Below are positions 5,483 to 22,267 of a stretch of 42,635 bases of DNA, one piece after another. The first letter of the stretch is position 1, and each line of letters starts with the position of its first letter. Under the pieces are notes generated by a model, which did no database searches, was not told the origin of the DNA, and saw only the letters and a list, made by a program, of their open reading frames with translations. Where the stretch lies: IMG/VR virus record IMGVR_UViG_3300037557_000319, positions 1-42,635 of that record; one strand, 5' to 3'. The stretch is from a virus. Position numbers and translations under genes: made by a program.

Positions 5483-7258
5483 TTAAGGGGTTTTAACTGT
5501 CCACCACCTACGTAGGTGGCCCCGTTGATCCCAACCAGCACGCGCTCGGCTGAAACGACGTAAGACGGGGACAGCGGGAGGACGCAAGTCCCCATACCGC
5601 TTGGACAAGGTAAACAAATTTTCTCGGTAACGCGACTCGGCTAGCTGCGCCATCTGCGGATTACCCATGTTCTCATAGAGAAACATCAAAGTTCGATGGA
5701 TAAGTAAATCCACAGCTACGGGCTGCACAAGAGGGGCATCCTGGTCATCTACTAACTTAGGGGGACGACGAACACATCGAATGTCTACCTCATAACGTTC
5801 GTTAGGGTAGGGGTAAAGCTGGATGCTTTGATACCCATTAATAGTCCTCATCCTCCGATGATAATCTGGGATGATACGACCGTTATCGTAAAAGATACCT
5901 TCGTTACTATCATCAATCTTTACTTCCCCTAATAAGAAAAATGCTGTAGGTAAGTCTAATTTTGTTAGGCCCCGAATAGTGGCGCCACCTGACGCATCAT
6001 CCCCACCCAGAGTCGGAATAGCACTCAGATTGCTATAGTTAGTAAAATCTGCTGTCACCCGACGCCGATAAATACGCACCCACCAACCACTCTCGCGGTA
6101 GTTAAAGCGAGCAAACCCAGCCAACGCCGCAGGCGTGCGTTGTTCACCAACGGTCATAAAGCCCTGCATATATTCAATATTCGGGAGAGTAATCCGTACC
6201 GCTGGAGTAGCCGTTCCTGGCTCTCCGGGGGAAATAGTAATTACTTGCGCCGAAACAGGGGATGGAGATGACTCCCACAAGGGTTCTCTAAACCTATTTT
6301 GGGACATTTCTTCAGCCCCGGTAGATTTAGGCTGGGCGTAGAAGTTCTCTTGAGTATTTAACCACTGGTTGGCGTAACCTAAATGATAGCCCATTGTGGG
6401 GTTTTGGAACTGAATATCCCGTTTTCCCCAACAGTATGTTATTACATACTCAAAGGTACCAGGGGGTTCCGGTCCAAGCCACGGTATGCCCCCGGCGATG
6501 GGAAGGACGGATTCTAGGTCTACTTCCGGCGGAACAGCAGGTCCTTGGATTTGGCGGTAAGGTCGCCGGAATACACTGCGTGGAAGACCGTGCGATGTAA
6601 CTTTGGGGTTATCCGCAAAGCTATAATCCTCTGCTTCTTCCTGTCCGATTACATCTAAGGGCCAATTACGGTTATCTTTCCATAAACGCATCGACCGGAC
6701 TTGGATTACATCGTCGGGTAAATAGTAGTGCTCGGAGTACACACGGTACTTAAAAGGCCCGGTGCCTAACGTATCGATAGGCCAAGGGATCACCACGCTA
6801 AAGCGGTAACGTGGGGTGCCACCTTCGGGCGTATACTTCCACACCGCTCGAATGCGGCGCCGATAATGGATCGTTTTACCCCCTTGGGTGGGGTCGTTTT
6901 TAACAGTAATCTCAATCATCCGACCGTCCCATGAACGATCGGTAGCCCAAGAAACATAACCCGGAGTATCAGCGAGAATGTCTTGCTCGAATACCCACGG
7001 GTTATTCTGGTTAGGCACCATTGGAGTAGTGTCATCTACTACCGTTAAAGAAACAGTATCACTATTTTGTAGTGAAGCCGCGTCTACTTGGGTAGCAAAC
7101 TTGACCATAGACTCGAAGAAAAGGAAGGGAGCTTCTAATGAAATATCATTATAGGCTCGATTAATGAACCCGTTAAGTCGTGTCACCGCTTCCGCAGATT
7201 GCGTGGGAGCCCAATCAGTCTGCGAAAATATCGCTGTACGCAACTCCTTCAGGTTCAT
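5483..7258 (-). CDS. Head-tail adaptor / tail tube A-like protein (enlarged)
   Basis: A 591-residue protein. The N-terminus has the pattern of phage adaptor proteins: a helix followed by LNGFINRAYNDISLEAPFLF (about residues 28-47), the bundle that docks on the portal ring. A later LPDDVIQVRSMRLW segment (about residue 175) is the strand pair usual in T7 gp11-type proteins. T7 gp11 is only about 200 residues, so this protein carries large insertions, mostly beta-rich. The C-terminal 100 residues (YPYPNERYEVDIRCVRRPP, then a helix pair) resemble the usual adaptor ending. It lies between the capsid and nozzle genes. Confidence 0.72.
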   Translation of the reverse strand: MNLKELRTAIFSQTDWAPTQSAEAVTRLNGFINRAYNDISLEAPFLFFESMVKFATQVDAASLQNSDTVSLTVVDDTTPMVPNQNNPWVFEQDILADTPGYVSWATDRSWDGRMIEITVKNDPTQGGKTIHYRRRIRAVWKYTPEGGTPRYRFSVVIPWPIDTLGTGPFKYRVYSEHYYLPDDVIQVRSMRLWKDNRNWPLDVIGQEEAEDYSFADNPKVTSHGLPRSVFRRPYRQIQGPAVPPEVDLESVLPIAGGIPWLGPEPPGTFEYVITYCWGKRDIQFQNPTMGYHLGYANQWLNTQENFYAQPKSTGAEEMSQNRFREPLWESSPSPVSAQVITISPGEPGTATPAVRITLPNIEYMQGFMTVGEQRTPAALAGFARFNYRESGWWVRIYRRRVTADFTNYSNLSAIPTLGGDDASGGATIRGLTKLDLPTAFFLLGEVKIDDSNEGIFYDNGRIIPDYHRRMRTINGYQSIQLYPYPNERYEVDIRCVRRPPKLVDDQDAPLVQPVAVDLLIHRTLMFLYENMGNPQMAQLAESRYRENLFTLSKRYGDLRPPAVPVLRRFSRARAGWDQRGHLRRWWTVKTP

Positions 7259-7283
7259 TTTTCCTTCCTCTTCTCACGAGATT

Positions 7284-7904
7284 TTATCCATTACAGTTAA
7301 GAATAACTGAGGCCAACGTGGGTCCTGCAGCCTGCGCGATGCTCATGCCGCAAGCATTTGCCGTGCCAGCGGCTGCGTCTTCGGTTAGCTGCCCTGCCGC
7401 ACCTGGGATTAACCCCCGTGAACCATTGATCAAACCACCACCAAGATTGGCGAGACCCGGTCCTTTAATCAGGACGAACCCGAAGAAACCAGCCGGGATG
7501 TCATATTGAGCTACCCCCGTGATCACAGCCGCGTTAGCAGACACCGCCCCCGCAAGGGACTGGTCTACAATTGCCGCGACAAAACCCACGGGGGACGCCG
7601 CCCCTGCACGTTTCACTGATTCACCGGCTGGGATCAGTGCACCCGTAGATGGATTGTAGACATACATCCAGGTCTGATCTCCACCACCTGAGGTGGGGAG
7701 AGGAAAAGGTGCAGGGGGCGGTCCGGGAGCCCAGTTAAGCGGCGCCTGGCTGGCAGGTTCACAATGAATAAACCCTAGAGGGGCTTGCGCCCATCGGCCA
7801 ATGTCCGGTCCTAGTGGAACGGGAGCATCGGGACCACCTGGATTGTTAACGTCTGGTTGACCTGTTGCACGGAGATGGTCAATCCCCATAGCTGTACGTG
7901 ACAT
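7284..7904 (-). CDS. Putative capsid decoration (cement) protein
   Basis: A 206-residue protein encoded immediately downstream of the capsid gene, with AAAGGAG ahead of its ATG. The first 90 residues are Pro/Gly-rich and probably extended. The remainder is Ala/Gly-rich with the recurring pattern QYDIPAGFFGFVLIKGPG (about residues 132-149) followed by a Gly-Ala-Ala-Gly segment. This layout is typical of small beta-sandwich proteins that bind the outside of HK97-type capsids. A decoration role is inferred from pattern and gene order. The 145-residue protein at 40047-40484 has a comparable pattern. Confidence 0.6.
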   Translation of the reverse strand: MSRTAMGIDHLRATGQPDVNNPGGPDAPVPLGPDIGRWAQAPLGFIHCEPASQAPLNWAPGPPPAPFPLPTSGGGDQTWMYVYNPSTGALIPAGESVKRAGAASPVGFVAAIVDQSLAGAVSANAAVITGVAQYDIPAGFFGFVLIKGPGLANLGGGLINGSRGLIPGAAGQLTEDAAAGTANACGMSIAQAAGPTLASVILNCNG

Positions 7905-20482: not shown

Positions 20483-21028
20483 TTAACAACGTTCCTCTTC
20501 GGGTAACCAAGAACGATCGGGCGCATCGTCGCCGTCGGCTATCGTTCGCAGTCCTTCTGCCTTTGTTACGTCTCGGTAATTACACACAACGCGAGTGTGA
20601 TGACGGGCGGTTAGGGGAGAAGGCTCGTTATATCCATAGGGACATTCCCACACGAACACCGCACACTCTTTCTTTGTGGGTCGACGCAAGCTTACTAGGC
20701 AGTATTCGTGGCATGATGAATTCCATAACAGGGCTTCTAAACCTGAATCATTCACCACAATTATCTTCCATTCGTCTTGCTCAACTAGAGCCTCCGGCTC
20801 TTTTCCCAATCCATCAACATTGTACCAACTCATATCGCCCTGCATTAAATCACTGCACCTGCTCCTACAATTGTATGCGGCGGATTCAACATCTTTCAGG
20901 ACTAGAATCTCGGTACCTCCATTGTCATAGTTGCTCGCCTCATTGATAGCGCTGCTTTCGCCGGGATATACACGGTTAAAGGTGTCATAGAATAGATCGA
21001 GTGTACAGTTGGTGTTAATCAGTTGCAT
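20483..21028 (-). CDS. Isolated hypothetical protein in the regulatory hub
   Basis: A 181-residue acidic protein with seven or more Cys residues and no recognised domain. The composition is protein-like, with regular acidic and hydrophobic alternation, while the plus-strand frame over the same bases is Cys/His/Arg-biased and looks like a shadow. The ribosome site is weak (GAGAAG). An extended -10 promoter lies just upstream and a terminator downstream, so it appears to be a one-gene unit. It may be an early host-takeover protein, but this is inference from position only. Confidence 0.6.
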   Translation of the reverse strand: MQLINTNCTLDLFYDTFNRVYPGESSAINEASNYDNGGTEILVLKDVESAAYNCRSRCSDLMQGDMSWYNVDGLGKEPEALVEQDEWKIIVVNDSGLEALLWNSSCHEYCLVSLRRPTKKECAVFVWECPYGYNEPSPLTARHHTRVVCNYRDVTKAEGLRTIADGDDAPDRSWLPEEERC

Positions 21029-21079: not shown

Positions 21080-21722
21080 ACAAAATAGGAACCAGGCTAA
21101 CACTTCGCTATAACCTAGGGTCCTACTCTCTTATTAGTGGTACACTTTATACGCTTATATATATATCGTGGCGCATTAGGTGGTTTTTCTCCTGTCAGCC
21201 CCTAAAACTAAACACTTGTTTAATTTGAGAGCTTGAATGTAAACACTGTAAACATCGGGTTCCACTTAACCCCTACTTAACCGTCCTGCTTGTTCCTCTT
21301 TTCAGTCAATGCCCCGACCCATTCCTACCCCGTTGCAATTTTACGCCCTTTGCTAAACGTGCCACGCAAGGGCCTGCGCTCACTTTGTTTCACTTTACCC
21401 CTTCCCAAAGCTACCCCAATTAGTTAAGATGTATTCACCAACGAGGGAAACACCGACACACCGACAAGCTGAACATCACATAAGCCAACCAAGTATAAAG
21501 GGCTAAAACAGTTCTGGCCGTAATAGCTAAAGACACCCACTTAATCGAGCGTATACGATACAAAGCAAATCATTACTGTGTAGGGGCTATCTTCTGAAGT
21601 AACGCAAGTTTAGTTTACTAGTTTACTAGGGTTCTAACCGGACTTAAGAACGACGGGCGTGTGATACATAGCTGAAGCACTATAGGACCGCAAAGGCGGA
21701 CGTGTGGAGGACTCTGCTCTGA
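21080..21722. other. Non-coding regulatory stretch
   Basis: No convincing gene is present. The stretch contains a tandem TGTAAACA pair (21238-21245, 21247-21254), a tandem CACCGACA pair (21451-21466), a tandem TTTACTAG pair (21614-21629) and the palindrome CGTATACG (21550-21557). There is a hairpin GTTCT/AGAAC (21631-21651) and a CCGC/GCGG hairpin (21688-21699). Bases 21300-21420 are pyrimidine-rich on the plus strand. It presumably holds the promoter(s) for the plus-strand early genes, though no clear -35/-10 pair was found. Confidence 0.6.
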
Positions 21723-22080
21723 CTATCCGGGTCCAGCGGAGGATAAAGAACCTACGGGCACCTTTTGCCTACCCGTAGCTAAATGACACAGGATAGGTGT
21801 GTCTAGTCTGGGGCTCTGCAATACAGCAACCATCCTACGGGGTGGAGAGCCAGCCGAAGTAATGTTATCAAGGTGATAACTAGCTAACCCGAGTACAAAC
21901 GGGCACCACAATTGTGGTTCATACCTAGCCTAACGGCCATGACAGTATGAGAATCGGCGGTCATACCTGACGGGTGAGGATAAAACCTTTCCCAACGCGA
22001 AGAAACGGGAAATAGCAGGGACTGACAAACCCTGCCTTCCAATTGAGTAGCACGGCTATCCGGTCCTGCTTCTCTATTGG
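21723..22080 (+). ncRNA. Candidate structured RNA or long 5' leader
   Basis: About 360 bases hold a near-continuous series of stems. In order they are TATCC/GGATA (21724-21745), CTACGGG/CCCGTAG (21752-21778), GACACA/TGTGTC (21785-21803), a 12-pair composite GGCTCT+CCATCC/GGGTGG+AGAGCC capped by a TACG tetraloop (21812-21851), GTTATCA/TGATAAC (21864-21880) and CCCG/CGGG (21888-21903). They continue with the palindrome ACCACAATTGTGGT (21905-21918), GTATGA/TCATAC (21945-21966), TTTCCC/GGGAAA (21988-22012), GCAGGG/CCCTGC (22015-22035) and a long interrupted stem 22039-22080. The C(TACG)G loop is a UNCG tetraloop only on the plus strand. No family is recognised. Confidence 0.55.
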
Positions 22081-22090
22081 AGGTCAAGTC

Positions 22091-22267
22091 ATGCAAGGAA
22101 TACAAGCAAACATCAAACAGCAAACAAGCCACCGACGTTTGAAGGCGAAGAAGACACGCCAGCCAAAACGGGAGAAACGCGGCAAAGCAGGCCAATGCAT
22201 CCAGTGGAAACGGTGCCCTAAAACCGGCCACCTTTTCAACCCTACAACCCACCGCCCACAGGAGTAA
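22091..22267 (+). CDS. Small very basic protein, first early gene
   Basis: A 58-residue protein. The ATG at 22091 has GGAGG seven bases upstream, and an earlier TTG lies inside the hairpin region and is rejected. About one third of the residues are Lys, Arg or His, concentrated in residues 14-31. A CIQWKRC segment and a final TGHLFNPTTHRP follow, so a two-Cys/His metal site is possible. It is the first gene after the structured leader. Nucleic-acid binding is likely from composition. No family is recognised. Confidence 0.65.
   Translation: MQGIQANIKQQTSHRRLKAKKTRQPKREKRGKAGQCIQWKRCPKTGHLFNPTTHRPQE

Follow-up and report, generated by a model that had tools for sequence, protein, structure and literature searches.

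A conserved structured RNA ending in a ribosome-binding-site hairpin ahead of the early genes of three related phages

The window, a 42,635-nucleotide IMG/VR virus record (IMGVR_UViG_3300037557_000319) analysed over its whole length, has genes for portal, terminase and primase on its minus strand; its plus strand encodes helicase, exonuclease and DNA polymerase. The rightward genes begin at 22091, and between this point and the start of a leftward gene, at 21028, there is a gap. A sequence-only reading had noticed a dense run of hairpins in this gap, at 21723 to 22080, and had proposed a plus-strand structured RNA, possibly of a new class, in front of the first early gene. The question is whether such an RNA exists and, if so, what role it might have at this position.

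Relatives were found by a search with the primase. Two of them, the IMG/VR phages L005 and L006, carry homologs of the RNA in the same gap with 60-81% identity in the alignment, and the compensated base pairs among these homologs support the proposed RNA. The three-phage alignment delimits a conserved element of approximately 480 nucleotides on the plus strand, at about 21602-22083. The hairpin region as originally drawn lies within a conserved RNA, but its bounds do not hold: conservation starts near 21602, some 120 nucleotides further 5', and extends as far as 22083. The element is non-coding, as all frames of each member contain stop codons and the indels do not come in threes. Its parts and the gene that follows are listed here, each with the evidence that defines it.

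21602 to 22083, plus strand: the whole structured RNA (bounds by conservation with L005 and L006; RNAalifold against a null)
21618 to 21629, plus strand: h2, 5' hairpin CUAG-UUUA-CUAG, with GGGAC/GUCUC in its place in L005 and GGGGA/UCCCC in L006 (comparative structure)
21630 to 21644, plus strand: h3, hairpin with a conserved UAAYC loop and two compensated pairs (comparative structure)
21654 to 21810, plus strand: hD, central domain with closing strands CGGGC (21654-21658) and GUCUG (21806-21810), of which L005 forms 3 of 5 pairs (comparative structure)
21680 to 21709, plus strand: h5, CUAUA/UGUGG with tip CCGC/GCGG; the tip covaries and the outer stem varies through G-U only (comparative structure)
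21712 to 21741, plus strand: h6, CUCUGCU/AGCGGAG, with one pair that is G-C, C-G and A-U across the three phages (comparative structure, covariation counts)
21752 to 21778, plus strand: h7, CUACGGG/CCCGUAG, with invariant AAAGAACC on its 5' side (comparative structure, covariation counts)
21785 to 21803, plus strand: h8, loop AGGAUAGGU, 4 of 5 pairs compensated (comparative structure)
21812 to 21851, plus strand: h9, GGCUCU/AGAGCC, enclosing a hairpin CAUCC-UACG-GGGUG (21831-21844) found in the window only (fold, comparative structure)
21853 to 21958, plus strand: multiloop closed by GCCGA (21853-21857) with UCGGC (21954-21958), one G-U change only (fold, comparative structure)
21864 to 21880, plus strand: h11, GUUAUCA-AGG-UGAUAAC, recoded in L005 and L006 (comparative structure)
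21888 to 21903, plus strand: h12, conserved loop GAGUAYAAAC (comparative structure)
21905 to 21950, plus strand: two window-only hairpins, ACCACAAUUGUGGU and UCAUAC/GUAUGA (gap in L005 and L006)
21953 to 21976, plus strand: conserved block AUCGGCGGUCAUACCUGACGGGUG, mostly unpaired (alignment)
21988 to 22012, plus strand: h15, UUUCCC/GGGAAA, conserved AACGCGA loop (comparative structure, covariation counts)
22015 to 22035, plus strand: h16, GCAGGG/CCCUGC, conserved CUGACA loop and four compensated pairs (comparative structure, covariation counts)
22036 to 22083, plus strand: terminal hairpin, its 3' strand ending in the Shine-Dalgarno sequence GGAGG (22079-22083) (fold, covariation counts)
22091 to 22267, plus strand: first early gene, encoding a 58-amino-acid basic protein with the motif TSHxRxKxKxTR..RxKR

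A structure built by hand comprises 18 helices and 105 pairs, and standard pairs are found in 300 of 307 cells across the three phages, a score taken on the same three sequences from which the structure was derived. It is homology that decides the question of structure, since L005 and L006 also carry the element, with 36 of the 51 variable pairs showing a compensatory double change, a count from three sequences and thus below R-scape-grade power. Cells with a double change are still paired in 29 of 32, 27 of 29 and 19 of 22 cases. The replacement of whole helices is most easily seen in h8 (GACAC/GUGUC, UCUGC/GCAGA and GCGC/GCGC, around a common AGGAUAGGU-like loop), h11 (GUUAUC/GAUAAC, GUCCCC/GGGGAC and GUCUCC/GGAGAC) and h16 (GCAGGG/CCCUGC, GCCCAGG/CCUGGGC and CCCGGGG/CCCCGGG), and several unpaired blocks of the RNA are invariant across members.

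A less circular test maps the minimum-free-energy (MFE) fold of L006 onto L005, where 102 of 115 pairs still form and 14 of 16 double changes preserve pairing; when the partners are slid, the number of pairs falls to 41-59 of 111-115. Covariation counts on two sub-alignments were reached by none of 500 shuffles, and the homologs fold with z-scores of -3.6 (L005) and -4.5 (L006). It is close to certain that this is a structured RNA, and computation gives strong evidence for both its existence and its fold. A long-range GCACUCG/CGAGUGC pairing of L006 is unsupported in the window and was rejected. AACGCGAAGAA and GCGGUAAUAC resemble motifs of 16S rRNA, and this likeness is attributed to chance because they are not present in all members and stand in another structural context.

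The individual hairpins first noticed in the window are real, including the seven-pair stem with a three-nucleotide loop at 21864-21880 (h11), and the UACG-capped composite is present as h9 and the hairpin that it encloses. Folding of 21640-22095 gives z -3.6 on the plus strand, with none of 100 shuffled controls as good, and z -2.3 on the minus strand. The claim of an unusual hairpin density is borne out at one scale only: among 92 plus-strand windows of 456 nucleotides from this genome the RNA region ranks second by folding, whereas the 120-nucleotide windows within it are unremarkable, so hairpin density alone is weak evidence. Folding energy alone amounts to moderate evidence. The only other sampled 456-nucleotide window with a z-score as low (-3.9) is 7041-7496 on the plus strand, which overlaps minus-strand open reading frames. 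The single-sequence MFE and the comparative fold disagree around 21640-21740.

The plus strand is favoured, with moderate confidence, by the consensus energy, by conserved G-U pairs and by the connection of the terminal hairpin with a plus-strand ribosome-binding site (RBS). RNAalifold gives -110.6 kcal/mol for the plus strand versus -56.6 (sd 5.6) in column-shuffled controls, and -97.5 versus -54.9 (sd 4.3) for the minus strand. G-U pairs are kept in all three phages in h3, h6 and h17c, and the hand structure contains no A-C pairs. However, one-sided changes in an unbiased MFE mapping yield G-U and A-C about equally, and the strand assignment is therefore no more than moderate. The UNCG-type loop had also been offered as an argument for the plus strand, and this argument is lost because L005 and L006 are without the UACG hairpin.

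The terminal hairpin is found in all three phages and consists of 8 bp, a 1x1 mismatch, 8 bp, a second 1x1 mismatch, 4 bp and a tetraloop, with an outer stem of seven pairs in L005. Its energies are -23.0, -26.9 and -33.4 kcal/mol (z -4.2, -6.2 and -5.8), and the stem is mostly invariant, with one compensated pair. In each phage this hairpin is predicted to base-pair the Shine-Dalgarno sequence of the gene that follows. In the window this gene encodes the basic protein, in L005 a FliS-like protein and in L006 an unknown 82-amino-acid protein. The constancy of the hairpin in front of different genes speaks for a leader or processing module of general use rather than for control by one gene product.

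In L005 and L006 the basic protein is the product of the second gene; it is conserved in four phages (window 22091-22267; L066 2893-3117; L005 1190-1408, minus strand; L006 3410-3631, minus strand), and a Pfam scan of three members found nothing above cut-off. The FliS-like genes, which match the flagellar chaperone family PF02561, are located at 1418-1717 of L005 (minus strand, E 7e-10) and 3042-3401 of L006 (minus strand, E 5e-15). A flagellar export chaperone is an unusual member of a phage early operon.

The relative L003 provides an informative comparison. Its primase is 78% identical and it shares left-flank sequence with both L005 and L006, only about 70 nucleotides separate the shared block from the basic protein gene, which is the first of its early operon, and searches of this phage for the RNA by similarity and by model gave no match. 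Since L003 has the homologous flanks without the RNA, the RNA is a modular insert that the operon does not require.

Further members were sought in several ways. Covariance models R1 and R2, run on more than 70 loci of relatives, recovered the three members only. L118 and L126 were inspected for a leader, but their sequences stop before the rightward early region. A match of G001 to a covariance model (13 bits) is too short to count. DNA-pattern scans of viral contigs, with matches read in context, gave only chance matches besides L005 and L006, and a match in a Pseudomonas fluorescens genome contig from a pattern scan spans 33 nucleotides of an open, coding-like stretch and was likewise judged to be chance. 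BLASTN against phages and plasmids returned nothing or two 30-nucleotide chance matches, and a viral scan with the basic protein for further carriers of the RNA led only to L005 and L006.

Comparison with catalogued families was similarly negative. No Rfam family reaches its gathering score in the window, and at E up to 5 there is no family common to the three members; weak matches (freshwater-1, CRISPR-DR57 and others) differ between members, lie far below gathering scores and were set aside. The sequence-only reading had suggested GOLLD or a relative, which is not borne out by any of the three members: the GOLLD model (RF02032) at E up to 10 matches none of them, in a search where control genomes responded only below the cut-off. 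The ROOL model (RF03087) also gave no match, in a dedicated search that had no responding control genome. The group I intron core model (RF00028) finds nothing in the RNA and responds in 8 control genomes.

Several other sequence features deserve mention. The sequence GAATGTAAACACTGT at window 21235-21249 is also present in L006 and is slightly altered in L005, and may be an operator or part of a promoter. A TATAAA located 3' of the common CCAACCAAG (window 21494-21499; L005 2316-2311, minus strand) lies about 100 nucleotides 5' of the conserved RNA start in both phages, and is a weak promoter candidate with no good -35 element. In the divergent region, palindromes resembling TGACA-N-TGTC are repeated at about 2960-2690 of L005 (minus strand) and at 2485-2545 of L066, and could be repressor operators. 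A conserved stretch of some 300 bp upstream of the primase in L004, L066, L114-L118 and L126 (e.g. L118 2830-3172) contains GTTACAG-type direct and inverted repeats and is possibly a replication origin.

Given its position and its 3' end, the RNA is best explained as a leader that acts in cis and contains an RBS gate or a processing site. We give about an even chance to the proposal that this uncatalogued plus-strand non-coding RNA is an early-operon leader of that kind, with the processing site being of the RNase III type. The RNA of approximately 480 nucleotides would form the 5' leader of the rightward early operon and would be co-transcribed with it, folding into some 18 short helices whose loop motifs are conserved, and its final long hairpin would hold the Shine-Dalgarno sequence of the first gene. 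Translation of that gene would have to await the opening or cutting of the hairpin, most likely by RNase III-type processing, and the folded body may either control this step or be released as a stable RNA. Against this leader, an operon of the same kind in L003 lacks the RNA, the conserved body is larger than a simple RBS gate needs, and a check of the plus strand found no sigma-70 promoter consensus. A possibility that we consider serious but clearly short of probable is a free-standing, trans-acting 'ornate' RNA similar to GOLLD or ROOL, perhaps an RNA-only assembly, that shares the early promoter and uses the terminal hairpin as a processing site. Its appeal derives from the size, the number of helices and the invariant unpaired blocks, from its all-or-none occurrence between homologous flanks, from the variable downstream genes, and from the precedent of GOLLD and ROOL, phage RNAs that assemble into homo-oligomers and whose function is unknown (PMC12286853). 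However, all three members have an RBS fused to their 3' end, and there is no GOLLD or ROOL similarity in sequence or model (the ROOL search being the one without a responding control). A tRNA search of the window found none, unlike the setting of many GOLLD and ROOL RNAs. The leader and a released trans-acting RNA are not mutually exclusive, and we tentatively entertain a new ornate class, unrelated to GOLLD and ROOL, that exists as a module in the early operon and is released by a hairpin cut that also frees the RBS of whatever gene follows.

Other explanations carry less weight. One is that the RNA promotes processive antitermination by acting in cis on RNA polymerase, as HK022 put and lambda nut do, with the basic protein as a possible partner. 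This would suit an element that opens the early operon and is followed by a first gene whose small Arg/Lys-rich product is conserved in four phages; lambda N is likewise a small arginine/lysine-rich protein. The antitermination reading is unlikely, given that L003 has the basic protein without the RNA and that put RNAs are about 70 nucleotides with two stem-loops (PMC9378689), making the present RNA some 7 times longer. A DNA-level structure or replication-origin feature would agree with the origin-type inverted and direct repeats that relatives carry between this region and the primase, but we consider it very improbable in view of the conserved G-U pairs, the lack of A-C pairs in the hand structure, the better plus-strand energy and the coupling to a plus-strand RBS. 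Least credible of all is a diverged group I intron or other known ribozyme: length, many helices and a mobile-like distribution would fit, but no L003 gene is interrupted where the RNA is missing, the three sequences have no Rfam match and the group I model is silent despite responding in controls.

Large conserved phage RNAs are rare, and most have no known function. Direct testing of a role has so far been hard for GOLLD and ROOL, and here it is feasible, because there is a defined genomic address, a presence/absence pair (L006 versus L003) and a clear 3' output in the form of the RBS hairpin.

The present RNA resembles GOLLD and ROOL in being a large, multi-helix non-coding phage RNA of unknown function. 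An RNA-only homo-oligomeric cage is a mark of GOLLD and ROOL. They often reside near tRNA genes, a typical rather than strictly defining trait, whereas this RNA of about 480 nucleotides has no tRNA nearby, heads an early operon and ends in an RBS hairpin. Like HK022 put, it would be a structured RNA close to the beginning of an early transcript, but it has another fold and far greater length. The lambda N leader and the T7 early RNase III sites likewise place a long, near-perfect hairpin beside the RBS of an early gene for a small protein; what distinguishes the present RNA is the folded body of about 430 nucleotides that precedes the hairpin and the placement of the Shine-Dalgarno sequence itself inside the stem.
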